A DNA stretch of 20,847 nt, taken from IMG/VR virus record IMGVR_UViG_3300030116_005518, positions 1 to 20,847 of that record; one strand, given 5' to 3'. The stretch comes from a virus. Position numbers and translations under genes: made by a program. Positions 10,074-20,847 of the stretch are shown here, in pieces (positions within the stretch are counted from its first letter, which is position 1; the number at the start of each line of letters is the position of its first letter). Under the pieces are notes generated by a model. The model was not told the origin of the DNA. It saw only the letters and a list, made by a program, of their open reading frames with translations, and did not search any database.

Positions 10074-10079
10074 TTAAAA

Positions 10080-10087
10080 TATTTATG
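10080..10087 (-). promoter_or_regulatory. T4-type late promoter, CATAAATA
   Basis: The minus-strand octamer lies 6 nt before the ATG at 10073. Confidence 0.75.
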
Positions 10088-10108
10088 GCTTAGGCAAGAT
10101 AATGAAAC

Positions 10109-10974: not shown

Positions 10975-11133
10975 TTAATTATCTCTAAGTTTGTCGCGAA
11001 CTTTGTTTAGTGTATCAGTCGCGGCTTTTACTTTATCCATATCTACCTTACCATCTGGTTTTAAAAATGGATTTGGTTTAGGTTTTATTGTATCTGTTGT
11101 TTGTACTGGCAGTTCAGAGTCTACTTTTTTTTT
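10975..11133 (-). CDS. candidate -1 frameshift extension
   Basis: The zero frame of the 187-aa gene ends ATA AAA AAA AAG TAG. In the -1 frame the sequence stays open for 49 more codons, starting VDSELPVQTTDT, through KPKPNPFLKPDGKVD, to a helical end and a TAA touching the next gene's ATG. A AAA AAG is the slippery heptamer of the E. coli dnaX type and occurs right before the stop; GAAGG upstream could act as an internal stimulator. The product would be about 236 aa. Alternatives are an indel in the nine-A run or a separate 20-aa peptide from the ATG in VDMDKV. Confidence 0.6.
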   Translation of the reverse strand, partial: KKKVDSELPVQTTDTIKPKPNPFLKPDGKVDMDKVKAATDTLNKVRDKLRDN

Positions 11134-11684
11134 ATATAAGCCTTCGCGTCAAATTTCTCTGGATCAAACGAAGATGGAGAAGCACCAGACACTTCATCAG
11201 GATTTGGAGGCAGTGCAGCGCCTGGATTAATAGCTCTACCGGCGTCTACTGCCTTCTTACCAACAAAATCTTTAATATCACCGCCTAGTTTTTTCATTCC
11301 ACCACCAAAACTACCAGCTTCTTTAGCCGCGCCACCTAACTTATATATACCATAGCCTGCGCCTGCTAGTGCTGCTAGCTTAGCTGCTTTACCAGCTAGG
11401 TCTCCTGCTTTAGCGAAGAAACCCTTTTCTTTGTGCTCATCTTCACTTAGCGGTACGTAAAGTTTAGACATGACGTTCTCGTAAGCAACATCAAATTTGT
11501 TTAATTGTCTAGTTTCTTCTTTCATTTTTAAATCTTCTTCTTTTTCTTTTTTTGCTTTTTTCTGGGCTTTATGTTGAGCGTATGCACCTTTAACAGCTCC
11601 AACTGCTCCGGCTCCGAGCTGAGCTAATTGAGCTACTGCACCTACAGTAGCTTCATTATTAATATTATTTATATTTTGGCTCAT
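11121..11684 (-). CDS. Ala/Gly/Lys-rich protein, frameshift donor
   Basis: This 187-aa protein is not recognised. It has an Ala/Gly-rich hydrophobic N-terminus (about 14-34), a very basic helix (about 37-58), LNKFDVAYENVMSKLYVPLSE (61-81), a second hydrophobic Ala/Gly stretch (about 97-120) and a proline-rich tail ending in KKK. LSE fits the T4-type prohead protease cleavage consensus. Basic, alanine-rich composition suits an internal head or scaffold-like protein, but this is inference. It may be extended by -1 frameshifting at its end. It diverges from the signal peptidase gene. Confidence 0.6.
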   Translation of the reverse strand: MSQNINNINNEATVGAVAQLAQLGAGAVGAVKGAYAQHKAQKKAKKEKEEDLKMKEETRQLNKFDVAYENVMSKLYVPLSEDEHKEKGFFAKAGDLAGKAAKLAALAGAGYGIYKLGGAAKEAGSFGGGMKKLGGDIKDFVGKKAVDAGRAINPGAALPPNPDEVSGASPSSFDPEKFDAKAYIKKK

Positions 11685-11690
11685 AAAATC

Positions 11691-11704
11691 TATAAGTATT
11701 TAAT
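11691..11704. promoter_or_regulatory. overlapping divergent late-like promoters
   Basis: On the plus strand TATAAGTA (11691-11698) lies 11 nt before the signal peptidase ATG. On the minus strand ATTAAATA (11697-11704) lies 12 nt before the ATG at 11684. Both are one or two bases from TATAAATA, overlap each other, and are farther from their starts than the other late motifs. Confidence 0.45.
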
Positions 11705-11709
11705 CGAAA

Positions 11710-12240
11710 ATGGAATTTAATTTTAAACCTTTACTTTTTAGTAAGTGTTCTATATCTATACTTTTGAGATTATCTATTTTTATGATAGGTGTTTTAGCAC
11801 TATCATATAATACATTTAGGATATTCAAAACAGATGGAAATTCGATGAGCGAAACCTATCATCATGGAGAAAATCTTTTAGTTAATACTCGAGCTTATAA
11901 AGATGAAGATCCAAAAAGATATGATGTTGTTTTAATAGTTGATATAGATAGATTTCTTTTAGGGGATGATTTTATGGTTAAGCGAATAATAGCATTACCT
12001 GGAGAAACTGTTGAGCTTAAAGATGGTATATTTTATGTTAACGGTGAGGTACGTACAGATGATATTTGGAATCATACAATTATAGGGCATTATAATTATA
12101 CAACTGGAGAACTAGAACCAGATCAACCACTTAAATTTAAACTTTTACCAAATGAATATTTTGTTATGGGGGATAACCGTATTGATACATGGTACGGTTG
12201 TGTAGATATTTCAGCTATACTCGGAAAAGTAATTAACTAG
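11710..12240 (+). CDS. phage signal peptidase I (S26)
   Basis: This 176-aa membrane protease belongs to the leader peptidase family, which removes signal peptides on the periplasmic side of the inner membrane. One N-terminal membrane helix (about 14-35) is followed by GNSM with catalytic S45, RYDVVLI (70-76), FMVKRIIALPGETVEL with catalytic K91, and GDNR at 154-157. After GDNR the usual SxDSR segment is missing (the sequence runs IDTWYGCVDIS), so box E is shortened, but the Ser/Lys dyad is intact. It stands alone on the plus strand between minus-strand virion genes. Its substrate is unknown; host envelope proteins or phage lysis or virion proteins are possible. Confidence 0.88.
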   Translation: MEFNFKPLLFSKCSISILLRLSIFMIGVLALSYNTFRIFKTDGNSMSETYHHGENLLVNTRAYKDEDPKRYDVVLIVDIDRFLLGDDFMVKRIIALPGETVELKDGIFYVNGEVRTDDIWNHTIIGHYNYTTGELEPDQPLKFKLLPNEYFVMGDNRIDTWYGCVDISAILGKVIN

Positions 12241-12466
12241 ATAACATTTCTAAAACATGCTGCTTAATTTTTGCATGCTCGATACCTGTGTCATCATTAA
12301 TAACTTGAACATAAACATCTAATGCATCTTTTAAGTTGCGGTAAGCAGCTGGCGTATCTAAAATAGCTTCATGTATTCTAGCATCAACATCACTTTCGTG
12401 CGCTATAGTAGTAGGCTGGTTACCATAGTACGCTTCTAAGATAGTCTTGTTGTCGAAATTATTCAC
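12233..12466 (-). CDS. small unknown late protein, GTG start
   Basis: This 77-aa acidic, helical protein (MNNFDNKTILEAYYG..., ending KQHVLEMLSS) is not recognised. The N-terminus resembles the MNKFD and LNKFD segments of the 150- and 187-aa proteins. A GTG start is chosen because a perfect TATAAATA lies 6 nt upstream. The end overlaps the end of the convergent signal peptidase gene by 8 nt. Confidence 0.65.
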   Translation of the reverse strand: MNNFDNKTILEAYYGNQPTTIAHESDVDARIHEAILDTPAAYRNLKDALDVYVQVINDDTGIEHAKIKQHVLEMLSS

Positions 12467-12472
12467 TATAAC

Positions 12473-12492
12473 TATTTATACCCGAATAAATA
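12473..12492. promoter_or_regulatory. divergent pair of late promoters
   Basis: Minus-strand TATAAATA (12473-12480) is 6 nt from the GTG at 12466. Plus-strand AATAAATA (12485-12492) is 7 nt from the ATG at 12500. The octamers are separated by only 4 bp (cccg), giving a near-palindromic divergent control site. Confidence 0.8.
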
Positions 12493-12499
12493 ATTTTAC

Positions 12500-12664
12500 A
12501 TGCCTTATAAGACAAGAAAAGTAGGTAATAAGACTTGCGTATATAAAAAGCGTGGAGGTAAAAAGATAGGATGTACTTCAGGACCTGTTAAAAAATATCT
12601 AGGTGCATTATATGCCAACGAATCTGCTTTTCCTTCTTTTAAAAAGTTTTATAATATTGGTTAG
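12500..12664 (+). CDS. small basic protein, 54 aa
   Basis: The protein starts MPYKTRKVGNKTCVYKKRGG and ends KKFYNIG. It is rich in Lys and Arg and has two cysteines (KTCVYKK, KIGCTSG) around a GGKK turn, then the helical segment GPVKKYLGALYANE. Small basic proteins of this general pattern recur in marine phages, mostly without an assigned role. The start is supported by AATAAATA 7 nt upstream. The stop overlaps the stop of the convergent spanin-like gene. Confidence 0.75.
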   Translation: MPYKTRKVGNKTCVYKKRGGKKIGCTSGPVKKYLGALYANESAFPSFKKFYNIG

Positions 12665-12966
12665 ATGGAAAGTTTACTTACTGTTGCTTCATATTTCTTT
12701 TTAAAATACAAAGCTTCTGCTTGTCTTAGTTCTATTTCTTTAATAGCTTTTTTCATTACTTCTGTCTGAGCACCAAGTATAACTCTAAAGTTATTATTTT
12801 CCATTTTAACTTTCTTAATCTCATCCAGACGTTTGCCTATTTCTTCTTTATATGCTTTATTAATGTTATTAACTTCAACAACTTTATGCTGTTGTATAAT
12901 CATGCCTGATACAACACCTAGAGAAAAAAGGAGCGCTACTATTAAAATATAACCTTTATCTTTCAT
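12661..12966 (-). CDS. small membrane coiled-coil protein, spanin-like
   Basis: The start is placed at the ATG at 12966 (101 aa) because ATAAATA lies 5 nt upstream; a longer frame from a TTG would run through the promoter. The N-terminus MKDKG is followed by one membrane helix (residues about 5-25, ILIVALLFSLGVVSGMII) and then about 75 residues of charged helix with coiled-coil character (YKEEIGKRLDEIKKVKMENN, MKKAIKEIELRQAEALYFKKKYEA). This is the shape of an inner-membrane spanin, which helps disrupt the envelope at lysis, but the sequence is not diagnostic. No endolysin or holin is visible next to it. Confidence 0.65.
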   Translation of the reverse strand: MKDKGYILIVALLFSLGVVSGMIIQQHKVVEVNNINKAYKEEIGKRLDEIKKVKMENNNFRVILGAQTEVMKKAIKEIELRQAEALYFKKKYEATVSKLSI

Positions 12967-12971
12967 ATTAT

Positions 12972-12988
12972 TATTTATTGTGTAAATA
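12972..12988. promoter_or_regulatory. divergent pair of late promoters
   Basis: Minus-strand AATAAATA (12972-12979) is 5 nt from the ATG at 12966. Plus-strand TGTAAATA (12981-12988) is 5 nt from the ATG at 12994. The octamers are one base apart. Confidence 0.75.
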
Positions 12989-12993
12989 TCGAT

Positions 12994-13191
12994 ATGAAAG
13001 AGCAGCTTCAAATCAAAGGTTGTGATTTAGAAGTTAGATATAGTGAGTCTGGTTTCTGGCAGGAAGATTTGATAGTGTTTTTTAACCCGCCAAAAGATAA
13101 AGATAAAGTACACATTATAGAATATCTTTACGAGGAAGGCTTTATATTAGATCCGAGAACACCTATTCGGATATTAGATCTTGAAGCATAA
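12994..13191 (+). CDS. small unknown late protein, 65 aa
   Basis: This acidic mixed alpha/beta protein (MKEQLQIKGCDLEVRYSES..., IIEYLYEEGFILDPRTPIRI) is not recognised. It starts 5 nt after a late octamer. Its TAA stop lies inside the octamer of the next gene. It precedes the plus-strand fibre cluster. Confidence 0.65.
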   Translation: MKEQLQIKGCDLEVRYSESGFWQEDLIVFFNPPKDKDKVHIIEYLYEEGFILDPRTPIRILDLEA

Positions 13192-13194
13192 ATA
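13187..13194 (+). promoter_or_regulatory. T4-type late promoter, CATAAATA
   Basis: The octamer lies 5 nt before the ATG at 13200 and contains the TAA stop of the upstream gene. It should drive the run 13200-13918. Confidence 0.8.
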
Positions 13195-13199
13195 TTTAC

Positions 13200-13433
13200 A
13201 TGTCAGTTAAGAAGACCCTAGACGGTGTAGTTACTACTGTTAATGCAAATAGTGGTTCTTGGTCTGGTGGTGGTGGTATAGATTCAACAGACATAATTAA
13301 ACAAGCTCCAAATGCATTAGCAGAAGATGTAACTATAACAAGTAACTATAATGCATTTGCGATCGGACCTTTAACTATTAATGATGGTGTAACTGTTACA
13401 GTTAGTGCAAGTGCAGTATTCAAGGTATTATGA
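13200..13433 (+). CDS. small structural/fibre-associated protein, 77 aa
   Basis: After the N-terminal part (MSVKKTLDGVVTTVNANSGS) comes a glycine run (SGGGGI) and a C-terminal beta module NYNAFAIGPLTINDGVTVTV-ASAVFKVL. Such GPLTI-DGVTVTV ends are common in phage tail and fibre proteins as a repeated beta-hairpin unit. It overlaps the next gene by 4 nt (ATGA). It is probably a fibre-attached or virion protein. Confidence 0.65.
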   Translation: MSVKKTLDGVVTTVNANSGSWSGGGGIDSTDIIKQAPNALAEDVTITSNYNAFAIGPLTINDGVTVTVSASAVFKVL

Positions 13434-13918
13434 GTCAACTTAATACAAATATAATTAAAGGAGTTCAAGATAACGATGATGTCGTTATCAAAACAAATAA
13501 TACTACTCGTGTAACATTTGCATCTGGTGGTGATACTCTTGTTACAGCTCTAAGTGCTCCTTCTGTTAGTGCTGTTAATACTTGTAAGGCGTGGGTTAAT
13601 TTTAATGGTCAAAGTACACCAGCGATAAGAACTAGTTATAATGTATCAAGCATTTCTGATGAAGGTACTGGTAGTTATATTATTATTTTTACCCAACCTA
13701 TGACAGATGCTAATTATGTTATTGCTGGTCACAACTCATCTGAAAATTCTACTAGCGGTTCAACTGTGATGAGAGGCTCAAACGGGTTTCATAGTGTAAA
13801 TCCGCAAGCTAGCGGTGCACATATAGTTTGTGCCTATGGGTCTAAGTTTGCTGGTGGTAACTCTGATGGTGCAGCGAATGACGTCTCTATATGTGCTGTA
13901 TCTATATTTGGTAATTAA
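13430..13918 (+). CDS. tail-fibre protein with KAWVNFNG domain
   Basis: This 162-aa protein has an N-terminal coiled or beta region and then, from about residue 53, the pattern KAWVNFNG-STPAIRTSYNVSSI-DEGTGSYIIIFTQPM-DANYV, a domain widespread in marine phage fibre tips. The C-terminal 50 residues (SGSTVMRGSNGF... to VSICAVSIFGN) complete a beta fold. The ATG overlaps the previous stop, and AAGG lies a few bases upstream. The 126-aa protein at 15903 carries a diverged copy of this domain. Receptor recognition is inferred. Confidence 0.75.
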   Translation: MSQLNTNIIKGVQDNDDVVIKTNNTTRVTFASGGDTLVTALSAPSVSAVNTCKAWVNFNGQSTPAIRTSYNVSSISDEGTGSYIIIFTQPMTDANYVIAGHNSSENSTSGSTVMRGSNGFHSVNPQASGAHIVCAYGSKFAGGNSDGAANDVSICAVSIFGN

Positions 13919-13924
13919 TAAATA
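13917..13924 (+). promoter_or_regulatory. T4-type late promoter, AATAAATA
   Basis: The octamer overlaps the TAA that ends the fibre gene and lies 5 nt before the ATG at 13930. It should drive the four-gene run 13930-15555. Confidence 0.8.
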
Positions 13925-13929
13925 ATTTT

Positions 13930-14196
13930 ATGAGCATAGAAGTAAACATGACAAAAGCGAAGGATATCTGGAAAGATAAATGGCGCGCCGTGCGTAAGGA
14001 AAAGCTTGAAGCTCTAGATGTTGACTTTATGAGAGCTGTTGAAGCAAGTGATTCTGACAAACAGAGTGAAGTTGCAACTAAGAAGCAAGAGCTTAGAGAT
14101 GTAACAGACACAGATCTTTCTAATGTATCAACACCAGATAACCTAAAACAAATATGGCCTACATGCTTAGGTGATAAACCAGAGGAGCTTAAATGA
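13930..14196 (+). CDS. tail-fibre assembly chaperone-like protein, 88 aa
   Basis: The order of motifs, KDIWKDKWRAVRKEKLEALDVDF near residues 11-33, a central acidic helix, then KKQELRDVTDTDLSNVSTPDNLKQIWP, matches the W..R..R...LD..........RQ.LRD layout of small phage tail or fibre assembly chaperones. Such proteins help fibres fold and attach and are usually not in the virion. It overlaps the next gene by 4 nt and leads an operon of fibre genes. The family call is by pattern. Confidence 0.6.
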   Translation: MSIEVNMTKAKDIWKDKWRAVRKEKLEALDVDFMRAVEASDSDKQSEVATKKQELRDVTDTDLSNVSTPDNLKQIWPTCLGDKPEELK

Positions 14197-14393
14197 GTGA
14201 TCTAGTAAACAAAAGAGTAATCTTTCCGAATGCAGAAGGTGGTGTATCGGTTCTAATACCAGCACCTAATTGCGGTCTTACATTAGAGCAAATTATTGCT
14301 AAAGATGTACCAGGTGATACATATCAGATTGTTGATAAGTCTGAAATACCATCTGACCGTACTTTCCGTAATGCATGGGAATATAAAGAGTGA
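14193..14393 (+). CDS. small fibre-cluster protein, 66 aa
   Basis: The protein has GGVSVLIPAPNCGLTLEQI, then KDVPGDTYQIVDKSEIPSDR-FRNAWEYK. The IVD-SEIPSDRTFRNAW pattern recurs at the ends of phage tail-fibre assembly or fibre-linked proteins. GAGGAG lies just before the ATG, which overlaps the preceding stop. It may act with the preceding chaperone-like protein. Confidence 0.65.
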   Translation: MSDLVNKRVIFPNAEGGVSVLIPAPNCGLTLEQIIAKDVPGDTYQIVDKSEIPSDRTFRNAWEYKE

Positions 14394-14986
14394 GTAGAAT
14401 TGTTCTAGTAAATCAGTCTTCTACACCAGATGATGCTGGTAGTGGAAATGCGCAGCTATTTGTTGAAGGTAATAAAGTATACAAACAAGTAGGTACTGAT
14501 AGTGCACAAGAATTAACTCGTGGTCTAGTATTACAAGTAAAACAAACCACTTTCACGGACACCTGGACATCGTCAACTGAAACGTTTGTTAATAGTCCCT
14601 TGTCTGCTGTAATTACACCATCATCTACTAGTAGTAAAATATTAGTAAAATGTAGTATGATGCTATTCAGTACATATGTTGGACCACCGATTCGAATTGC
14701 ACGTAAGATAACTGGAGGAAGCCAGACATATCCGATTGTCTCGGATCATTCTACTTATGAGCAAGCTGCTACTATGTGGGCATCTCCTTATGCCGCTTCT
14801 AACTATCACGCAACTAGTACAAACTATAATTATCTTGACTCTCCGTCTACTACTAGCGAGATAGAATATAATATACAGACTCTAGGTCCAAATGGAAATG
14901 CGGGATATATAAACAAAACGACAAACACAAACAACTATTCTTTTTACGGTACTAGCGAAATAACATTAATGGAGATAGCAGGATGA
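14390..14986 (+). CDS. short tail-fibre paralogue C, GTG start
   Basis: This 198-aa protein starts with GTG, overlapping the previous stop by 4 nt. It has an N-terminal docking-like segment (SRIVLVNQSSTPDDAGSGNA, VEGNKVYKQVG), then GLVLQVKQT and a C-terminal beta domain with SAVITPSSTSSKILV and the end EITLMEIAG. The SA-ITPSSTSSKI and MEIAG marks are shared with the 190-aa gene that follows and, more weakly, with the two minus-strand paralogues. It is probably a receptor-binding fibre tip. Confidence 0.7.
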   Translation: MSRIVLVNQSSTPDDAGSGNAQLFVEGNKVYKQVGTDSAQELTRGLVLQVKQTTFTDTWTSSTETFVNSPLSAVITPSSTSSKILVKCSMMLFSTYVGPPIRIARKITGGSQTYPIVSDHSTYEQAATMWASPYAASNYHATSTNYNYLDSPSTTSEIEYNIQTLGPNGNAGYINKTTNTNNYSFYGTSEITLMEIAG

Positions 14987-15555
14987 GTAAAATAATTGTC
15001 AATCAGATTGAGTCATCAGACGGTACTACTGATGTTTTAAACTCATTAAGTGCTGTTAATGTAGCTGGAGCTGGTATGGGTCAGGTATTACAAGTAGCAT
15101 CTACATTCTCTAATACTCATGCAAGTGTTGCTAGTGTAACTCTTACTGATACAGGAGTTTCTGTAAGTATAACTCCATCAAGTACATCGAGTAAAATATT
15201 TTTAACAGTTGATGCTTTTATGGGTTCAAGTAACACTGATAGTAATGGAGGCTTAGCAATTTACAGATCAGCTCCAGGTGGCTCAGCAGGTTACGTAGGT
15301 GTAGGTGATAACGGTAGTAATAATAATCAAACACAAGTTGGAGGTGCTGTGTATGTTAAAGATTCAAAAGGTCAAAATGTAGGGTTAAGTTTTTTAGATA
15401 CTCCAAATACTACTGACCAATGTACATATAAACTTTATTTTAATAGCAGATCAGGAAGCTACACAACATATTTGAACAGGACTCATAGTAATAGTAATAA
15501 TAATTACATGTACGTAGGTGGTACAACAATTACAGCTATGGAGATAGCAGGCTAG
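14983..15555 (+). CDS. short tail-fibre paralogue D
   Basis: This 190-aa protein begins MSKIIVNQIESSDGTTDVLN, different from its upstream paralogue, and continues with GMGQVLQVAST, SVSITPSSTSSKIFLTVDA and a final TTITAMEIAG. YLNRTHSNSNNN resembles INRSHTHSDSNN in the minus-strand 246-aa paralogue. It overlaps the previous gene by 4 nt, with GGAG 8 nt before the ATG. Its TAG stop shares CTAG with the stop of the convergent gene. Confidence 0.7.
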   Translation: MSKIIVNQIESSDGTTDVLNSLSAVNVAGAGMGQVLQVASTFSNTHASVASVTLTDTGVSVSITPSSTSSKIFLTVDAFMGSSNTDSNGGLAIYRSAPGGSAGYVGVGDNGSNNNQTQVGGAVYVKDSKGQNVGLSFLDTPNTTDQCTYKLYFNSRSGSYTTYLNRTHSNSNNNYMYVGGTTITAMEIAG

Positions 15556-15833
15556 TTCTTAAGTTCTTTATTCTCTTTAATTAGATCCTGTATAACAGCT
15601 TGAAGTATATTCTTTTCTTTAATATCTGATTCTATTTGTTCAGCTTGTATCTCTGATATCTCTTTCCAATCAGATATCTCACTCTTTAATTCATCTATCT
15701 TTTCTTCTAAGTCACTTGTATCAGGTACATCTTCTGTTTTATTACCTGCTGCATAACCTGAGATAAATGAAACACCGGCTAGTAGAGTACAGATTAAGAC
15801 GTATTGAACCATCTTTGAATCTTTTGCTTCCAT
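15552..15833 (-). CDS. second small membrane coiled-coil protein, spanin-like
   Basis: The start is set at the ATG at 15833 (93 aa), 5 nt after ATAAATA; an upstream in-frame start would cross that promoter and the structured repeat. MEAKDSK is followed by a membrane helix (about 9-29, VQYVLICTLLAGVSFISGYAAG) and then a long acidic coiled coil (about 40-93) with heptad-like spacing. It resembles the 101-aa protein at 12661 in design but not in sequence. A spanin or other envelope role is possible. It lies antisense within the plus-strand fibre cluster. Confidence 0.65.
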   Translation of the reverse strand: MEAKDSKMVQYVLICTLLAGVSFISGYAAGNKTEDVPDTSDLEEKIDELKSEISDWKEISEIQAEQIESDIKEKNILQAVIQDLIKENKELKN

Positions 15834-15838
15834 ACACT

Positions 15839-15846
15839 TATTTATT
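15839..15846 (-). promoter_or_regulatory. T4-type late promoter, AATAAATA
   Basis: The minus-strand octamer lies 5 nt before the ATG at 15833 and abuts structured repeat copy 1. Confidence 0.75.
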
Positions 15847-15847
15847 C

Positions 15848-15887
15848 GGCCGCATTGCGTAAAATAGCTGCAAGCTAAGGCGGTCCA
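15848..15887 (+). repeat. structured repeat, copy 1
   Basis: The hairpin TAGCT-GCA-AGCTA (15865-15877) is preceded by TGCGT and followed by AAGGCGGTCC. An outer pairing GGCCGC with GCGGTC is possible in this copy. The copy fills the gap between two divergent late promoters. Compared with copies 2 and 3, one stem pair has changed from C-G to T-A. Confidence 0.75.
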
Positions 15888-15888
15888 T

Positions 15889-15896
15889 AATAAATA
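15889..15896 (+). promoter_or_regulatory. T4-type late promoter, AATAAATA
   Basis: The octamer lies 6 nt before the ATG at 15903. Confidence 0.8.
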
Positions 15897-15902
15897 GTTT
15901 AA

Positions 15903-16283
15903 ATGGGAGTTTTTGATACTACACAAGCTAACTGGGGTAGAGCCGCTAATATTAGCGGAACAGCTAAAGTATGGGCAGCATGGGAACAAATAGGTACACA
16001 AGCTTTAAGGGGTAGTTATGGTGTATCTGGTATTGTTGATGAAGGTGTTGGACGTACAACAGTTAACTTTACAACTAATTTTAACAGTCAAGGTGGGTGG
16101 TGTGCTACAGGAGCTTCAAACTTTTACGGATCAAATACCATATCTGCTAGCACGGCAAAATTTGCTACAGTATTTCAAACATGTAGTAGTATATATATCT
16201 ACTGTAATGATGGTGGTACAAACATTGATTCGCATTGGGTTAATTTTGCTGGGTTCGGTCCAAACGATGATCCTATATCATAA
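15903..16283 (+). CDS. fibre-tip protein, diverged KAWVNFNG-like domain
   Basis: This 126-aa protein begins MGVFDTTQANWGRAANIS. It carries KVWAAWEQIGTQALRGSYGVSGIVDEGVGRTTVNFTTNF with small breaks, which aligns by eye with KAWVNFNG..AIRTSYNVSSISDEGTGSYIIIFTQ in the 162-aa protein. The middle (CATGASNFYG, FATVFQTCSSIYIYC) is beta-rich. It is a single gene behind its own late promoter and is followed within about 10 nt by structured repeat copy 2. It is probably a minor fibre or adhesin tip. Confidence 0.65.
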   Translation: MGVFDTTQANWGRAANISGTAKVWAAWEQIGTQALRGSYGVSGIVDEGVGRTTVNFTTNFNSQGGWCATGASNFYGSNTISASTAKFATVFQTCSSIYIYCNDGGTNIDSHWVNFAGFGPNDDPIS

Positions 16284-16292
16284 TTGTCTAAA

Positions 16293-16333
16293 CGGCGCGG
16301 TATGCGTGTATAGCCGCAGGCTAAGACGGTCCC
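16293..16333 (+). repeat. structured repeat, copy 2
   Basis: The hairpin TAGCC-GCA-GGCTA (16311-16323) is preceded by ATGCGT and followed by AAGACGGTCCC. It begins 9 nt after the stop of the fibre-tip gene. No T-run follows, so it is not an ordinary intrinsic terminator. Confidence 0.75.
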
Positions 16334-16389
16334 ATTACTTTTCTCAATATCTAATTAACTTTTATCAATATCACTTTCCGGGATATCAG

Positions 16390-16397
16390 AGTAAGTA
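16390..16397 (+). promoter_or_regulatory. variant late promoter, AGTAAGTA
   Basis: This weak match to TATAAATA lies 5 nt before the ATG at 16403, the same position as the clear promoters. Confidence 0.5.
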
Positions 16398-16402
16398 ATT
16401 AC

Positions 16403-16519
16403 ATGATAGCAGGAATAATGGAGTTTATAGCAGTTATAGGATTTATAATACTTTGCTTTATACATCTAATCATTAACTTATTAACCGGACAAGACGGCCC
16501 TTTATTACCCTTCTGGTAG
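16403..16519 (+). CDS. tiny membrane protein, 38 aa
   Basis: The protein starts MIAGIMEFIAVIGFIILCFI and ends NLLTGQDGPLLPFW. It is one hydrophobic helix (about residues 3-27) with a short polar tail. It is supported by a late-like octamer at the usual spacing and lies between two structured repeats, with copy 3 starting at its stop codon. A holin-like or membrane accessory role is conceivable, but nothing specific is seen. Confidence 0.55.
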   Translation: MIAGIMEFIAVIGFIILCFIHLIINLLTGQDGPLLPFW

Positions 16520-16559
16520 GCGGCCCATGCGTGAGTAGCCGTAGGCTAAGGCGGTTCCC
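16519..16559 (+). repeat. structured repeat, copy 3
   Basis: The hairpin TAGCC-GTA-GGCTA (16536-16548) is preceded by ATGCGT and followed by AAGGCGGTTCCC. It begins at the last base of the 38-aa gene's stop codon and lies 30 nt upstream of the next late promoter. Confidence 0.75.
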
Positions 16560-16588
16560 AAGGTTCTTAAGATATCCCCGGTAGATAG

Positions 16589-16596
16589 AATAAATA
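16589..16596 (+). promoter_or_regulatory. T4-type late promoter, AATAAATA
   Basis: The octamer lies 5 nt before the ATG at 16602. Confidence 0.8.
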
Positions 16597-16601
16597 GTTA
16601 C

Positions 16602-17081
16602 ATGGACAAGAAATTTTCAGGTAATCAATGGTTTACAGTTAATACTGATACGAAGCCAGTATATAACGACTACGTAGAACAGAATAACTCAGAATTATTC
16701 GATAAACAGCCTATAGAAGAGCTTAGCGAAGATCCTGAAGCTTTAGAAGCTAGATTCATTCAGATGATAGAAGATCTAGAGCCAGCACGTGATGTCCGTG
16801 AAGCATATATGGATTGCATTGACGGAGGATGTGATCCTGCTAGATTAGCTATGATTCTGGATAAAGCAATAGAAAATGAAAACTTACATCCACACGAAGC
16901 TTATTATATAATGACTGGTACTAATCCAGGTAAAGAAGATAATTTTGATATTAAAAATGTAATGGGTAGTAAACCACGTATGGGTAAAGCACAACCAGAA
17001 CCTGTTAATTATGATAAGGAATATGGTGTGTCAGGCTATTATCTAGATAACGATGGTAGAGATATCAGAGATAGAGACTAA
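16602..17081 (+). CDS. acidic unknown late protein, 159 aa
   Basis: The protein is not recognised. It is acidic and mainly helical in the middle (EDPEALEARFIQMIEDL, ARLAMILDKAIENENLHPHEAYYIM, about residues 43-105), with a disordered N-terminus and a tail rich in Asp, Arg and Tyr (YYLDNDGRDIRDRD). It has no membrane helix or signal peptide. It is the last plus-strand late gene and is followed by an intrinsic terminator. The start is fixed by the late promoter. Confidence 0.7.
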   Translation: MDKKFSGNQWFTVNTDTKPVYNDYVEQNNSELFDKQPIEELSEDPEALEARFIQMIEDLEPARDVREAYMDCIDGGCDPARLAMILDKAIENENLHPHEAYYIMTGTNPGKEDNFDIKNVMGSKPRMGKAQPEPVNYDKEYGVSGYYLDNDGRDIRDRD

Positions 17082-17121
17082 ATTGTCCTAGATTAACCCT
17101 TCACTACGTTCAGGCGCAATT

Positions 17122-17154
17122 ACCGGGAGTTATACCAATAGCTTCCGGTTTTTT
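17122..17154 (+). terminator. intrinsic terminator of plus-strand late genes
   Basis: The stem ACCGGGAG/CTTCCGGT (one G-T pair) with a 12-nt loop is followed by six T. It lies 40 nt after the stop of the 159-aa gene. Confidence 0.8.
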
Positions 17155-17312
17155 CCTAAAAAAATTTTTTCCGGAAACCCATATATAAGAAATACTAGGA
17201 AATTGCGAAAAAATATTGGCATGCACCTTCTGAAACCGAAAACCCGGTTTCGTATATCAGACAAATTTTCGTACTTAAGGTTCTAAGAGCGGGGTGGTTC
17301 TAGAAAGTACAG
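17155..17312. other. convergent intergenic zone
   Basis: No gene is seen. The zone holds an A/T block (seven A then six T near 17158-17170), a 7-bp hairpin GAAACCG/CGGTTTC (17232-17251) extendable with CTGA/TCAG, and AT-rich sequence between. It separates plus-strand late from minus-strand early transcription. An origin or regulatory role cannot be shown from this sequence. Confidence 0.5.
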
Positions 17313-17350
17313 GGGCTGTCTAGAGCAAACCACTCAACTCTAGACAGCCC
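17313..17350 (-). terminator. 13-bp hairpin after RadA-like gene
   Basis: A perfect inverted repeat, GGGCTGTCTAGAG with CTCTAGACAGCCC and a 12-nt loop, starts 12 nt downstream of the RadA-like stop. On the minus strand it is followed by CCTGTACTTTC rather than a T-run. It may end or protect the early mRNA; a protein-binding site is another reading. Confidence 0.6.
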
Positions 17351-17362
17351 GCTGTATCTATC

Positions 17363-18274
17363 TTAGCCTACCTTAGTATAAACTGCCTTCACTCCGCGAC
17401 CGACCTTATCTAACTTACCGGTAATAGTCAGCTCACGTAAGATGAAACTAGCACGTTGAGCATCTTCGATCTTAGTAAGAGCATCTTGAAGCGTAATAGA
17501 GTTCTTATCGAGCTGCATAATCATATCCATCTCAGCTTGCTTACGATTAACCTTACCAGTATGAGCTTTACCTTCATCGGCGGGCTTCTCGTAATCGAAG
17601 TCGTAACCAGTCCCGGTAAGTAAGAGCGTACACTCACCAGTAGGTCCGAACCTATTCTTCAGGGTGAACATATTAACGTGCTGATCGGGCTGACCTTCAA
17701 CGAACTCACGAAGGAGTTGAATATTAAAGTCTACCGAGTGAATCACGGACGTATTACCTTTATACTGACCAGACTTAGTCAAGTGAAGTACAATGCAGAT
17801 CGTACACTCGTTCTTCTTAGCCGCTTTAACGAGCTCTTGAATAGAGAACATCTCATGACGGCGACTACTAGTATCGCTATGCTTAGACTCTAGAGCTTGG
17901 AACGAGTCAACAACCAGCATATCGAAGTCCTTAGTGAACTTAACGATCTCTTCAGTACGAGTCTCGTTACAGATCTCTACCTCATCGACACCAATACGTT
18001 TACAAGTATTAGCGAGCTGCTCAACAGCCTCTTCGCCACTGATATAACCGACCTTATAGTTCTGCTTTGCGAGGCCTTCCATGATCTGAAGGAGCATAGT
18101 CGTCTTACCAGAGCCGGCACTACCGGTCAAACAACCTACCGAACCGGGCAAGAAGCCGCCGCCGAGGTTATCGTCGATACGAGCGATACCAGTTTGAAGT
18201 CTGCGATTAAAGATCTCCGGGATAACTACATCCTGGGCTTTCGTGAATTTGGTTTTCGTAATACTAAGGTTCAT
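17363..18274 (-). CDS. RadA-like RecA-fold ATPase
   Basis: This 303-aa protein has a RecA-type core: Walker A GSAGSGKTT (51-59), YISGEEA (77-83), Walker B DMLVVD (118-123), HLTKSGQYKGNTSVIHSVD (164-182) and KNRFGPTGE (206-214). The KNRFG and TK.G...G...H.VD motifs identify the RadA/Sms family, which drives branch migration in recombination. The usual N-terminal zinc finger and C-terminal Lon-like domain are absent. Instead residues about 240-303 look like a small winged helix. It is the last gene of the early region, has its own promoter and is followed by a hairpin. Codons use more C and G than in the late genes. It probably acts in phage DNA recombination or replication. Confidence 0.85.
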   Translation of the reverse strand: MNLSITKTKFTKAQDVVIPEIFNRRLQTGIARIDDNLGGGFLPGSVGCLTGSAGSGKTTMLLQIMEGLAKQNYKVGYISGEEAVEQLANTCKRIGVDEVEICNETRTEEIVKFTKDFDMLVVDSFQALESKHSDTSSRRHEMFSIQELVKAAKKNECTICIVLHLTKSGQYKGNTSVIHSVDFNIQLLREFVEGQPDQHVNMFTLKNRFGPTGECTLLLTGTGYDFDYEKPADEGKAHTGKVNRKQAEMDMIMQLDKNSITLQDALTKIEDAQRASFILRELTITGKLDKVGRGVKAVYTKVG

Positions 18275-18292
18275 AACTTAACTGACTGAAAT

Positions 18293-18321
18293 ATTGTAGT
18301 GGTTTTTCGGAGGAACTGCAA
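18293..18321 (-). promoter_or_regulatory. early sigma70-type promoter of RadA-like gene
   Basis: TTGCAG, a 17-nt spacer beginning TTCCTCCGAA, then TACAAT, which is 18 nt from the ATG at 18274. The -35 lies 2 nt after the stop of the 50-aa gene. Confidence 0.8.
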
Positions 18322-18323
18322 GC

Positions 18324-18476
18324 TTAGTCTTCGAACTTCTTGAAGTTATCCGCTACGATCTGACAAAGATCATCTACATTAAGATTAGTAAGCTCATACT
18401 CTCTATCCAATAACGGATCCATATAAGTCATAATGTCTTGTTGGATTTGTTCACTGACTTCGTTCTTATTCATCAT
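18324..18476 (-). CDS. small acidic early protein, 50 aa
   Basis: The protein starts MMNKNEVSEQIQQDIMTYMD and ends LCQIVADNFKKFED. It is helical and acidic and is not recognised. Two ATGs in tandem (18476 and 18473) are possible starts; the first is 6 nt after the -10 box, predicting a leaderless mRNA. Its last codons and stop (GAAGACTAA) plus the following promoter nearly repeat those of the 61-aa gene. Confidence 0.65.
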   Translation of the reverse strand: MMNKNEVSEQIQQDIMTYMDPLLDREYELTNLNVDDLCQIVADNFKKFED

Positions 18477-18482
18477 ACAACT

Positions 18483-18511
18483 ATTATGCATTCGGATTGG
18501 AGGAACTTCAA
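18483..18511 (-). promoter_or_regulatory. early sigma70-type promoter
   Basis: TTGAAG, 17-nt spacer beginning TTCCTCC, then CATAAT; six nt separate the -10 from the ATG at 18476. The -35 is 2 nt after the preceding stop. Confidence 0.8.
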
Positions 18512-18513
18512 GC

Positions 18514-18699
18514 TTAGTCTTCTAGGAGAATCTTACGGATCTTCAGACGATACTCGAGAGTCGCATCATCCAGCTTATCCTTCTGAAATTCGTTCAGTTT
18601 AGGTGCGAGCGTCCAATACATATCTTCTAGACGGTCTCTGACCAATTGCATTTGTTCGTCTCGGCAGTCGTGCATCATTCGTTCTTTCTTATCTAACAT
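18514..18699 (-). CDS. small charged helical early protein, 61 aa
   Basis: The protein starts MLDKKERMMHDCRDEQMQLV and ends KIRKILLED. It is almost wholly helical with many charged residues; no family is recognised. The ATG lies 6 nt after the TATACT -10 box. Its C-terminal codons and stop repeat those of the 50-aa gene. Confidence 0.7.
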   Translation of the reverse strand: MLDKKERMMHDCRDEQMQLVRDRLEDMYWTLAPKLNEFQKDKLDDATLEYRLKIRKILLED

Positions 18700-18705
18700 A
18701 CAAAT

Positions 18706-18734
18706 AGTATAGGATTTATTCGGAGGAACCTCAA
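18706..18734 (-). promoter_or_regulatory. early sigma70-type promoter
   Basis: TTGAGG, 17-nt spacer beginning TTCCTCCGAAT, TATACT, then 6 nt to the ATG at 18699. The -35 is 4 nt after the stop of the 45-aa gene. Confidence 0.85.
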
Positions 18735-18738
18735 GCTT

Positions 18739-18876
18739 TTACCACCACATTCTTGTTTCGTCGTCTGGTTCGATGATCTTAGTCTCATCTTCTTGGTCAT
18801 ATTGGTACCCCACCTCAGGTACCTCCAACGGTCCAAATAGCTTTTCAGCAAGTATTTTAATATCGTATTGATTCAT
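18739..18876 (-). CDS. small acidic early protein, 45 aa
   Basis: The protein starts MNQYDIKILAEKLFGPLEVP and ends with acidic sequence and TRMWW. It is not recognised. A strong Shine-Dalgarno (AGGGGG) lies 6 nt before the ATG, unlike the promoter-proximal genes, which fits an internal operon gene behind the 35-aa membrane protein. Confidence 0.65.
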   Translation of the reverse strand: MNQYDIKILAEKLFGPLEVPEVGYQYDQEDETKIIEPDDETRMWW

Positions 18877-18896
18877 TTAGCCCCCTGTGATATTTT

Positions 18897-19004
18897 TTAG
18901 AACAACATTAAGCCAATTGCATATCCGCCAATGAACGTTCCTAATATAATTACAAATGCAGCTATGGTTAGCAAGGTTATAATATTAATAAATGTATCTT
19001 TCAT
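18897..19004 (-). CDS. tiny membrane protein, 35 aa
   Basis: The protein starts MKDTFINIITLLTIAAFVII and ends FIGGYAIGLMLF. Nearly all of it is one hydrophobic helix. It begins 11 nt after the stop of the 65-aa gene and is followed 20 nt later by the 45-aa gene, suggesting one operon of three. The function is unknown. Confidence 0.6.
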   Translation of the reverse strand: MKDTFINIITLLTIAAFVIILGTFIGGYAIGLMLF

Positions 19005-19015
19005 ATTTCTATATA

Positions 19016-19213
19016 TTATTTGTCCGCGTATGGATGATTTGGATCACCATCTGGATCCCACCCGTCAAATACGTCTTGTTCAATTCCTTCTAGAATCAAT
19101 TCGACAACTGCGCCAGAACTCATATGAGGATTCCGCTTCATCGCGTTTTCTGCCAATTTCCGGATATTGAGAACAACATCCACATTAAGGTTTGCGTATT
19201 CGGTAGTGGTCAT
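19016..19213 (-). CDS. small unknown early protein, 65 aa
   Basis: The N-terminal half is helical (TTTEYANLNVDVVLNIRKLAENAM by segments); the C-terminus is acidic with DGWDPDGDPNHPYADK. It is not recognised. It is the first gene after the best-matching early promoter, with a leader of about 15 nt containing no clear Shine-Dalgarno. Confidence 0.7.
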   Translation of the reverse strand: MTTTEYANLNVDVVLNIRKLAENAMKRNPHMSSGAVVELILEGIEQDVFDGWDPDGDPNHPYADK

Positions 19214-19234
19214 ATCGTTATTTTCTATACAAGT

Positions 19235-19263
19235 ATTATACGGGGAATTCGGAGGAACCTCAA
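19235..19263 (-). promoter_or_regulatory. early sigma70-type promoter, consensus -10
   Basis: TTGAGG, 17-nt spacer beginning TTCCTCCGAATT, TATAAT. The ATG is 21 nt downstream at 19213. The -35 is 2 nt after the preceding stop. Confidence 0.85.
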
Positions 19264-19265
19264 GC

Positions 19266-19454
19266 TTAATAATTATGAACTGCGGGCCCTATTTCGTGAT
19301 CTAGATGCTTATGGGCAATGGAATAAGAGCGCTCTGGGTATGGGATAACCTCAACATAACCCTCCTCGAATTTACCAATGACCATATAGTCAGCTCCATC
19401 ATAGGAGACTGCATCTCCGATTTCTAATTTGTCGATCTCTTTCTTACTTAACAT
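19266..19454 (-). CDS. small SH3-like early protein, 62 aa
   Basis: Residues 12-39 (IGDAVSYDGADYMVIGKFEE..YVEVIPY) look like the strands of a small SH3/Tudor-type barrel; a His-rich tail follows (AHKHLDHEIGPAVH). The ATG is 6 nt after the CATAAT -10 box. Small barrels often bind nucleic acid or protein, but no function can be assigned. Confidence 0.7.
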   Translation of the reverse strand: MLSKKEIDKLEIGDAVSYDGADYMVIGKFEEGYVEVIPYPERSYSIAHKHLDHEIGPAVHNY

Positions 19455-19460
19455 GCTTCT

Positions 19461-19489
19461 ATTATGTATTCGGATTGGAGGAACCTCAA
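19461..19489 (-). promoter_or_regulatory. early sigma70-type promoter
   Basis: TTGAGG, 17-nt spacer beginning TTCCTCCAATCCGAAT, CATAAT, then 6 nt to the ATG at 19454. The -35 is 1 nt after the stop of the 70-aa gene. Confidence 0.85.
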
Positions 19490-19490
19490 G

Positions 19491-19703
19491 CTAAAACTGG
19501 AATTCATCCCAGCCAATAGTATTCTCAATATCTTCTGAGAACTCTTCAATAGTTAAAAGCTTACCTTTTATCTTACATTCCTCTATATAGAGCTCTAATA
19601 CTTGTTGGGTTGTATCATTCATACCATTTATTTCTTTTTTAAATTCAGGCCAGGGTTCATTATCTAAAGGTCCTAAGCCTGATTGTCCTTCCATATCTAA
19701 CAT
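19491..19703 (-). CDS. small acidic early protein, 70 aa
   Basis: The start is the ATG at 19703, 6 nt after a -10 box; a longer frame would read through the promoter. MLDMEGQSGLGPLDNEPWPE is followed by a helical acidic body (EINGMNDTTQQVLELYIEEC by parts, TIEEFSEDIEN) and ends GWDEFQF. It is not recognised. Very acidic small early proteins sometimes bind host enzymes, but this is only a possibility. Confidence 0.7.
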   Translation of the reverse strand: MLDMEGQSGLGPLDNEPWPEFKKEINGMNDTTQQVLELYIEECKIKGKLLTIEEFSEDIENTIGWDEFQF

Positions 19704-19709
19704 ACAACT

Positions 19710-19738
19710 ATTATGGATCCGAATAGGGGGAACTGCAA
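19710..19738 (-). promoter_or_regulatory. early sigma70-type promoter
   Basis: TTGCAG, 17-nt spacer beginning TTCCCCC, CATAAT, then 6 nt to the ATG at 19703. Confidence 0.8.
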
Positions 19739-19862
19739 GTCCAAATATAGGCTGGTCATTCCCCCGGAATTTCACTATACTATATGGGTAGTCAGAAGAC
19801 TAACGTGAATGAGACCATGGGTCTGGGGAGAACTCTTTATAGGCCCGGAAACTCCCCCGAGT
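19739..19862 (-). ncRNA. candidate structured leader or small RNA
   Basis: This would be transcribed from the promoter at 19868-19896. No convincing gene is seen. Possible hairpins in order are ACTC/GAGT at the 5' end, an alternative GGGGAG/CTCCCC, AGACC/GGTCT (loop CAT), TAGTC/GACTA, and ATTCC/GGAAT (19758-19770). It has no T-run terminator, so it may be a leader that runs into the 70-aa gene. Confidence 0.4.
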
Positions 19863-19867
19863 ACCTT

Positions 19868-19896
19868 ATTATAGGAACTTTTCCCGGGCCCGTCAA
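19868..19896 (-). promoter_or_regulatory. strong sigma70-type promoter
   Basis: TTGACG, a 17-nt spacer unlike the conserved early one, and a consensus TATAAT. It is the best overall match to the sigma70 consensus here. Predicted transcription starts near 19861. Confidence 0.75.
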
Positions 19897-19911
19897 GCCT
19901 ATACTATCTAG

Positions 19912-19928
19912 CAGATCCTACAGATCTG
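19912..19928. repeat. 6-bp inverted repeat
   Basis: CAGATC and GATCTG flank a 5-nt loop, between the 24-aa frame and the promoter at 19868. No T-run follows. Confidence 0.4.
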
Positions 19929-19940
19929 AATGAACTATTC

Positions 19941-20015
19941 TCAGCCCCCGCCAGCTGAATAGTAAAGTATGTATATCATGGCTAATGCTACTATCAGAAA
20001 TATCAGCAAAAACAT
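19941..20015 (-). CDS. possible tiny membrane peptide, 24 aa
   Basis: MFLLIFLIVALAMIYILYYS plus AGGG is one hydrophobic helix. The ATG lies right after the CCTCCTTTT that ends the structured RNA, and there is no Shine-Dalgarno. It resembles the other tiny membrane proteins here, so it could be expressed from that RNA by readthrough, but it may also be a chance frame. Confidence 0.35.
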   Translation of the reverse strand: MFLLIFLIVALAMIYILYYSAGGG

Positions 20016-20061
20016 AAAAGGAGGACTGGCCTTACGGGGTCTGATTGTGCGTAAGACCAGT
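20016..20061 (-). terminator. terminator-like hairpin
   Basis: ACTGGTCTTACG pairs with CGTAAGGCCAGT over 12 bp with one G-U, around a 13-nt loop, followed by CCTCCTTTT. The pair is a G-U wobble only in minus-strand RNA (C-A in the plus strand), supporting minus-strand transcription. Confidence 0.65.
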
Positions 20062-20131
20062 CTAGTTGTTTGTTCTAGACCCAGGAGGCGCCTTTATGGC
20101 TGCTTACTCCTCACTCCCTTACTCAAGGGAC
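20016..20131 (-). ncRNA. candidate structured RNA, about 115 nt
   Basis: The RNA is predicted to start near 20131 from the promoter at 20138-20165. Four stem-loops follow: UCCCUU/AAGGGA with a GAGU loop at the 5' end; AGGAG/CUCCU enclosing GC and GCC/GGC with an AUAAA loop; GUCUAG/CUAGAC; and the terminator-like 12-bp stem. Almost every base is in or between stems and no good gene lies within. It may be a phage small RNA or a long attenuator leader of the 24-aa frame. Family membership cannot be judged by eye. Confidence 0.55.
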
Positions 20132-20137
20132 AATATT

Positions 20138-20165
20138 ATTATACATTATCTCCCAGGAACTGCAA
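20138..20165 (-). promoter_or_regulatory. sigma70-type promoter of structured RNA
   Basis: TTGCAG, 16-nt spacer beginning TTCCT, TATAAT. The -35 directly follows the stop codon of the 37-aa gene. Confidence 0.75.
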
Positions 20166-20279
20166 CTACCAATTGAATAGTTCGCACACTCCCCACATAA
20201 TGACAAATAACCAGAAGAGACCTACTAAGACCTCGTCGATCTTATCCTCTGTCTTGATACCGTACTTAGTTAGCTTCAT
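20166..20279 (-). CDS. tiny membrane protein, 37 aa
   Basis: The protein starts MKLTKYGIKTEDKIDEVLVG, followed by a helix rich in Trp and Phe (LFWLFVIMWGV) and CELFNW. It has a polar helical N-terminus and one membrane span. It overlaps the end of the preceding 56-aa membrane protein by 14 nt in another frame, with AAGG near the ATG. The pair is probably co-translated. The function is unknown. Confidence 0.6.
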   Translation of the reverse strand: MKLTKYGIKTEDKIDEVLVGLFWLFVIMWGVCELFNW

Positions 20280-20436
20280 TAGTTGCCTTGATAGAATCAG
20301 ACCAAATCCAGAGAGTAACTCCCCCGCAGAGATACAGAGTATCACCCGGTAACTCGTAACCTAACACAGCTGCCACGCAGGCTGTATTAATAAGCGCAAA
20401 CCCAGCGCCATGCATTATCATCTTCAATTTATTCAT
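20266..20436 (-). CDS. small two-helix membrane protein, 56 aa
   Basis: The start is the ATG at 20436, 7 nt after TATAAT; a longer frame would include the promoter. MNKLKMIMHGAGFALINTAC begins a first hydrophobic helix (about 8-26), then a GYELPGDT turn and a second helix (LYLCGGVTLWIW, about 32-45), ending KATNEAN. It is not recognised. Its position in the early region suggests a membrane-targeted host-takeover role, which is inference. Confidence 0.65.
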   Translation of the reverse strand: MNKLKMIMHGAGFALINTACVAAVLGYELPGDTLYLCGGVTLWIWSDSIKATNEAN

Positions 20437-20443
20437 TACATAT

Positions 20444-20472
20444 ATTATACGTGTATTCCTGAGGCACTGCAA
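20444..20472 (-). promoter_or_regulatory. early sigma70-type promoter
   Basis: TTGCAG, 17-nt spacer, TATAAT, then 7 nt to the ATG at 20436. Confidence 0.85.
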
Positions 20473-20484
20473 GTATTATTTTTA

Positions 20485-20563
20485 CCCGGTTATATTACTC
20501 ATACCGTTCGCTCCCCCGCGGGTTCTCAGATTTAACCGGGGATATATCTCCGAGATAAATCTG
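20485..20563 (-). other. possible pseudoknot RNA element
   Basis: On the minus strand CAGATTTA (20556-20563) pairs with TAAATCTG (20527-20534), and CCCGGTTA (20533-20540) pairs with TAACCGGG (20485-20492). The order 1-2-1'-2' is that of an H-type pseudoknot or of two competing hairpins, since the arms share two bases. It lies between the 45-aa membrane gene and the next early promoter. Confidence 0.45.
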
Positions 20564-20574
20564 TGCCTAGTTCG

Positions 20575-20712
20575 TTAGAGTATAGTATGGGCTAGATATA
20601 TAACAATACCAGTTAGTAGGTATATAATAAAGAAGACACAATACGCGATATTTCTAGGTCCGTCTTTACCCTTAAACAACTCCTCTAACCTGATTAACCA
20701 TTCAGGCTTCAT
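20575..20712 (-). CDS. small membrane protein, 45 aa
   Basis: The protein starts MKPEWLIRLEELFKGKDGPR, then a membrane helix (about 22-41, IAYCVFFIIYLLTGIVIYLA) and HTIL. AAGAAGG lies immediately before the ATG. It overlaps the end of the preceding gene by 11 nt, so translation is probably coupled. It is not recognised. Confidence 0.65.
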   Translation of the reverse strand: MKPEWLIRLEELFKGKDGPRNIAYCVFFIIYLLTGIVIYLAHTIL

Positions 20713-20847
20713 CCTTCTTATCTATCGGACCCTTATTAGTGTCGTCGGCGTTACTAAGGTTCTCATAATAGTAAGGTTTAATAGCTGTACACTTAGGTTC
20801 TTTTGGAATACATCCAGTTAAGTAAGCTTCTTCTTCTGGCGTTAATT
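20702..20847 (-). CDS. unknown protein, C-terminal 47 aa only
   Basis: The N-terminus lies beyond the right edge. The visible part reads LTPEEEAYLTGCIPKEPKCT, then AIKPYYYENLSNADD, ending GPIDKKDEA. It has two cysteines (residues 12 and 19 of the visible part) and a polar tail. No family is recognised. Frame choice rests on the clean open frame to the edge and the coupling with the 45-aa gene. Confidence 0.6.
   Translation of the reverse strand, partial: LTPEEEAYLTGCIPKEPKCTAIKPYYYENLSNADDTNKGPIDKKDEA

Follow-up and report, generated by a model that had tools for sequence, protein, structure and literature searches.

The 20,847-nucleotide (nt) stretch of viral DNA analysed here (IMG/VR record IMGVR_UViG_3300030116_005518, positions 1 to 20,847; hereafter the window) carries on its minus strand a chain of similar promoters, most with a conserved spacer element, set among small genes. 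We propose that these are probably early promoters of leaderless mRNAs, read by the host RNA polymerase, that double as modular gene cassettes in a clade of uncultured, probably T4-like phages. An earlier reading of the same window (the original prediction) had put forward both the promoter–gene cassettes and the leaderless mRNAs, and conservation across other virus records now lends both strong support at the level of sequence.

Most promoters in the window share an extended motif

Direct reading of the minus strand of 17000–20847 and pattern scans bore out the seven promoters first described there, in each of which 17 nt separate TTG-N3 from the −10 box, at the predicted position (window numbering throughout). 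Their −35 elements begin (first base, minus strand) at 18321, 18511, 18734, 19263, 19489, 19738 and 20472, and the −10 boxes in the same order are TACAAT, CATAAT, TATACT, TATAAT, CATAAT, CATAAT and TATAAT. The spacer starts are likewise as reported: TTCCTCC in five, TTCCCCC in one (19738) and TGCCTCA at 20472. The sites, including an eighth, are as follows.

18293..18321, minus strand: promoter TTGCAG-17-TACAAT, spacer TTCCTCC..., upstream of the radA-like ATPase gene, 18 nt from −10 to ATG
18483..18511, minus strand: promoter TTGAAG-17-CATAAT, −10 end 6 nt from ATG 18476
18706..18734, minus strand: promoter TTGAGG-17-TATACT, −10 end 6 nt from ATG 18699
19235..19263, minus strand: promoter TTGAGG-17-TATAAT, ATG 19213 lying 21 nt downstream
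19461..19489, minus strand: promoter TTGAGG-17-CATAAT, −10 end 6 nt from ATG 19454; near-identical to 18483–18511
19710..19738, minus strand: promoter TTGCAG-17-CATAAT, spacer TTCCCCC, −10 end 6 nt from ATG 19703
20444..20472, minus strand: promoter TTGCAG-17-TATAAT, spacer TGCCTCA, −10 end 7 nt from ATG 20436
20138..20165, minus strand: eighth, weaker site TTGCAG-16-TATAAT, spacer TTCCTGG, abutting a TAG stop; possible structured RNA downstream

The gaps of 6–7 nt between −10 and ATG described for five genes were found as claimed. A stop codon 0–4 nt before the −35 had been noted in six cases; five of the seven promoters have one (2 nt away at 18321, 18511 and 19263, 4 nt at 18734 and 1 nt at 19489), but the sixth case, with a gap of 0 nt, is the eighth site at 20165 with its 16-nt spacer and so lies outside the seven. 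Sites 19738 and 20472 have no preceding stop.

Bare −35 and −10 boxes say little in this DNA, because a generic sigma-70 scan of 10000–20847 returned 35 sites against 35.5 expected, with no excess; only the extended motif counts. The sequence TTGNNGTTCCNCC occurs at six sites in the window, all on the minus strand, and at none in the reversed control. The full extended motif, observed six times, was absent from 300 windows simulated with a second-order Markov model, and allowing up to two mismatches gave 26 matches against 7.8 expected. Although the generic matches stand at their expected level, the zero counts in the reversed and simulated sequences refute a chance likeness in a T/C-rich region, to which we attach practically no weight. 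Two further interpretations were rejected: pairing of CCTCC as an anti-Shine–Dalgarno sequence, as relatives carry TTCCTTT, TTCCAAT or TTTCCCC instead, and a known RNA family, as no Rfam family matched in the window.

Two regions near the eighth site have no clear open reading frame (ORF). Positions 19868–19896 (minus strand) hold a near-consensus promoter, TTGACG-17-TATAAT (11/12), ahead of a stretch that has no clear ORF and folds in an ordinary way (z −0.95). Behind promoter 20165, positions 20005–20138 (minus strand) fold better than their shuffles (z −2.43, 4/200) into a long hairpin followed by a T-rich end; with no Rfam match, this is possibly a small RNA.

The motif is conserved in other uncultured virus records

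The spacer is conserved well beyond the window; the lack of such conservation, which the original prediction had named as the outcome that would speak against it, did not occur. Scanning viral-contig DNA with TTGNNGTTCCTCC plus a −10 box gave 28 loci, of which two (L133 and L153) were kept, the motif recurring there, and 26 were dropped by inspection; among 119 stretches no repeated full motif was found except at the window's own loci. A second pattern (GTTCC, then any bases, with GTATG required) found 22 loci, several of them in records of 59–218 kb. In 22 virus records, TTGNNGTTCC-N14-AYAMT has 60 matches distributed over 19 records and none in the reversed control; the three records without a match are relatives recovered solely through the RadA-like protein. 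Sixteen of the 19 matching records were recovered by a motif-containing pattern, and the window and records G001 and G002 were not selected by ATG.

The leaderless form, TTG-N20-YAYAMT-N4-GTATG, has 142 matches, spread over 17 of 22 uncultured records, as against two in eight cultured phages and none in six more. Across 84,980 bacterial and archaeal species the strict form has just two isolated matches, in one genome each; these single sites, in a Treponema metagenome-assembled genome and in Flavonifractor, were taken as chance. A nucleotide search of the early region against cultured phages gave no match, and cassette DNA gave weak matches only (best E 0.06 among the matches listed).

Promoter anatomy and a possible second recognition factor

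A pattern fixing TTG, TTCC and the −10 yielded 75 distinct sites in 19 records (80 sites over 431,735 bases, against none in the reversed control). Beyond the fixed positions, these sites conserve GC before TTG, G at −30, TCC at −17 to −15, GT before ATG, ATG at +1 and then AAA AAT AAG AAC. Sigma-70-type features are all present: a −35 TTG, a spacer of 16–18 and a TATAAT-like −10. When TTG, a nearby TTCC and a −10 were required, 143 sites were obtained, and in 109 of them an ATG opening an ORF of at least 25 codons lies at exactly 6 nt, whereas the reversed control gave two sites, neither with such an ATG. The same spacing holds for 18 of the 28 sites in G000, G001 and G002, three records that were recovered without an ATG in the pattern. 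When no −35 was demanded, TAYAMT-N6-ATG plus an open frame occurred 111 times against six in reversed sequence, and TTG and TTCC re-emerged in place. We also observed a promoter sub-class in which a common leader (CATAATAGAAGAGTAGAATAA, then CAA-rich) replaces the ATG at 6 nt (L169 3726, L202 4444 and 6504, L203 12221).

The original prediction had suggested that the spacer is bound by a second recognition factor. Such a protein, phage-coded or a host activator, would bind GTTCC and make these activated early or middle promoters, much as MotA does around −30 at the middle promoters of T4; we regard this as unlikely. GTTCC at −30 to −26 and TCC at −17 to −15 are prominent in the 75 sites (in which TTCC was fixed by the pattern), TTCC emerges even when left free and is kept among several RadA homologues, and in the main form 13 bp separate it from the −10, much like the spacing of the MotA box. 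However, in 152 sites TTCC slides by 1 nt relative to the −35 hexamer (offset 0 in 63, +1 in 55, −1 in 3, absent in 31), and the −35 TTG is retained in 57 of 61 sites selected by TTCC, whereas MotA promoters are not known to keep it. Nor did we find a MotA or sigma-70 region 4 homologue, although an unrelated factor would escape such searches: MotA_activ (PF09114) was detected in 0 of 14 uncultured records, which may be fragments, with a positive T4 control; MotCF was not found in a search without positive control; and no sigma-70 region 4 homologue was found in these possibly fragmentary records. On that last result we rejected a phage-coded sigma factor that has region 4.

Somewhat less doubtful, but still only a possibility in our estimate, is a narrower form of the explanation that we favour. 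In it the promoters are ordinary main-sigma ones without a role in exchange, and the bias in the spacer stems solely from the way in which an atypical host sigma factor or polymerase touches the DNA (extended −35, extended −10). TTG and a good −10 are nearly always present, the second TCC mainly holds a constant distance (−17) to the −10 across the 152 sites, and no phage sigma factor was found. The near-absence of the strict leaderless motif from cellular genomes argues the other way, though that pattern misses host promoters with leaders, and the differing gene neighbours and common first codons described below would be left unexplained.

Promoters of diverged RadA-like genes

The first promoter of the chain precedes the following gene.

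17363..18274, minus strand: RadA/KaiC-like ATPase, 303 amino acids (aa), behind promoter 18293..18321

We compared 12 RadA-like homologues, the window copy among them; protein identity to that copy is 34–55%. The homologue in L153, at 55% identity, lies directly behind the same kind of promoter. The TTCC element and the −10 are in register in the window and in G001, G003, G006, G015, G018 and G010 (in the last of which TTT replaces TTG; G003/G018 and G006/G015 are near-duplicate pairs), and G005 has TTG and GTTCC with an unclear −10; the RadA-like genes of G008, L171, L172 and L173 are without the TTCC element, L171 still having a −10 6 nt from the ATG. Among the homologues that keep the element, the remaining spacer bases have diverged. 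That the same few bases are kept before diverged genes points to selection, and hence to function and not to copying alone.

Recent copying as the sole source of the likeness, by gene conversion or by duplicating identical cassettes whose spacer has no function, therefore seems very unlikely. It would fit the near-identity of sites 18511 and 19489, which stand ahead of unrelated genes, and the slightly greater likeness of promoter segments within than between records (spacer 0.466 vs 0.427, 0/200 permutations). Yet identity between records nearly equals that within records, and the RadA homologues hold the same positions while the other spacer bases diverge.

Cassette genes, first codons and possible exchange

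The other genes behind the window promoters are small.

18324..18476, minus strand: cassette gene, 50 aa, no family match
18514..18699, minus strand: cassette gene, 61 aa, no family match
19016..19213, minus strand: gene behind promoter 19235–19263, 65 aa, no family match
19266..19454, minus strand: cassette gene, 62 aa, no family match
19491..19703, minus strand: cassette gene, 70 aa, no family match
20266..20436, minus strand: cassette gene, 56 aa, no convincing family match

Across the records, 155 promoter–ORF units (G004 repeats nine units of G005) fall into 86 protein families, with 56 singletons and six homologous pairs within a record. The first codons of these mostly unrelated genes are nonetheless alike at the nucleotide level. 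Where codon 3 encodes Asn it is AAT in 91 units and AAC in none, and where codon 5 does so it is AAC in 53 and AAT in three, against a background of AAT:AAC = 387:303 deeper in the genes. This skew indicates that the bases themselves are kept, beyond the amino acids. In 101 of the 155 units the −35 has an ORF stop no more than 12 nt away, compared with 244 of 1,550 random positions; the stop most commonly ends two bases ahead of TTG (32) or four bases into the −35 (25). Common gene families (for example, f00) are flanked by differing neighbours across the 9 records shown. Recombination between cassettes, the other explanation raised by the original prediction, thus gains indirect support, from the promoter and first-codon module common to unrelated genes, the differing gene order and the slight within-record likeness.

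A proposed model of leaderless early expression

In the model that we favour, the promoters of this clade of large, uncultured and probably T4-like phages would be read at the start of infection by the host's RNA polymerase carrying the main sigma factor, each promoter being wedged between the stop codon of one small gene and the ATG that opens the following one. Because the −10 ends 6 nt before the ATG, +1 is expected on the A of the start codon; the mRNAs would be leaderless or carry just a base or two, and would be translated without a Shine–Dalgarno sequence. Shine–Dalgarno-like bases precede 28 of 204 large ORFs, a share close to the 108 of 1,000 at random positions (5 of 14 in the window), under the crude rule that the first ATG is the start. 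The composite of stop codon, GCTTGNNGTTCC, −10, ATG and first four codons would be held by selection for promoter and start function and, because it stands before many unrelated genes, could act as a homology patch for the gain, loss and reshuffling of small genes. The simplest view of the polymerase would be host holoenzyme together with an extended −35/spacer element.

Several observations weigh against this model. Within the window only four of the seven counted sites have an ATG at 6 nt; the radA-like ATG, 18 nt from its −10, is not leaderless, and promoter 19263 lies 21 nt from its ATG. The strict GTATG form is missing from G001 and G025, and, because most relatives were recovered with GTATG-containing patterns, the leaderless form is favoured in the sample. 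The pairs G004/G005, G003/G018 and G006/G015 are near-duplicates, so the 19 matching records are not 19 independent phages. Finally, the 45 nt preceding the promoters form slightly more stable folds than random stretches do (−6.9 vs −5.2 kcal/mol), which, with some strong hairpins, makes a stem–loop element possible at some sites. Strong hairpins (about −25 kcal/mol), resembling those of the early promoter stem–loop cassettes discussed below, lie directly upstream near L210 7371, L169 3232, L209 8517 and L203 12948.

Late-like boxes and the phage group

T4-type late-like boxes (ATAAATA) lie 5–7 nt before the window ATGs at 12500, 13200, 13930, 15903 and 16602 (plus strand) and 12966, 10073, 9289, 7618 and 2150 (minus strand), ahead of ORFs of 54–1221 codons. 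In 15 uncultured records, WTAAATA occurs 5–7 nt before an ATG 306 times against 98 in reversed sequence; eight cultured phages pooled give 54 against 43, and single cultured phages 16 against 5 (HTVC008M) and 8 against 1 (RHph_I1_18). The box-to-ATG spacing suggests that late genes may be leaderless too. A bolder extension, which we judge quite unlikely, is that the whole programme would be leaderless, with early genes driven by the composite module and late ones by T4-type late boxes that lie 5–7 nt before AUG; the module, including the nucleotide-conserved AUG AAA AAU AAG AAC, would serve as both translation signal and gene-exchange unit, with a dedicated factor reading GTTCC.

A T4-like large terminase is present in five of 19 records, with less than 60% identity to all cultured relatives (31–39% to cultured T4-like phages among the matches listed). 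The window is a fragment without a terminase and is tied to the group solely by its RadA-like gene, the motif and the late box. A search of 16 uncultured records and eight cultured phages found the RadA-like gene at E <1e-60 in G000, G001, G005, G008, G010 and G018, and in no cultured phage. The window also encodes a signal peptidase I-like gene (Peptidase_S26, E 1.5e-22) at 11710–12240 on the plus strand.

Relation to known systems and significance

The nearest known system is that of the PeSLs, early promoters paired with a stem–loop, which are reportedly mobile regulatory cassettes of T4-type phages (Arbiol 2010; Comeau 2014). They are proposed to mediate gene shuffling, according to PMC4503421. 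The cassettes reported here are similar in that an early-type promoter is repeated among small variable genes, here of probably T4-like phages, and gene shuffling is proposed. They differ in that terminator-like hairpins upstream of the promoters are rare (5/146 vs 3/146 random) and strong hairpins few, and in that the promoter abuts or overlaps both the stop codon and the start codon, ahead of a gene predicted to be leaderless. Because most cassettes are without the stem–loop that names PeSLs, we do not class them as such.

A −10 region adjoining the ORF, with leaderless expression, is described for Deinococcus-Thermus in PMC12340547. There, too, the −10 is set so that the mRNA starts at the start codon, but that host pattern is −10 based, whereas the phage cassettes have a −35 and a conserved spacer element as well. 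T4 middle promoters carry the MotA box TGCTTtA and T4-type late promoters TATAAAT(A), as given in PMC9004378. Like MotA/AsiA promoters, the cassettes combine a conserved element near −30 with a −10; they differ in sequence, in retaining the −35 TTG and in that no MotA homologue was found. Boxes similar to the late promoters occur in the same phages, often 5–7 nt before ATG, as a class separate from the cassettes. Literature searches that combined leaderless expression with early promoters or with T4-like phages turned up no title or abstract, among the papers listed, that describes this arrangement. Repeated early promoters and the leaderless −10 are already known; what is new is that the two are joined in one promoter/start module, and that this module is spread through a group of uncultured phages.

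If the model is correct, a phage lineage would have combined the promoter and the start codon with a site of gene exchange in a single short module, which would explain how small early genes of no known function are acquired and expressed at once. Small early genes of T4-like phages are often anti-host. The model would also predict hosts that translate leaderless mRNA well. The motif provides a search pattern for such phages, and would give annotation start sites that ribosome-binding-site models would miss.

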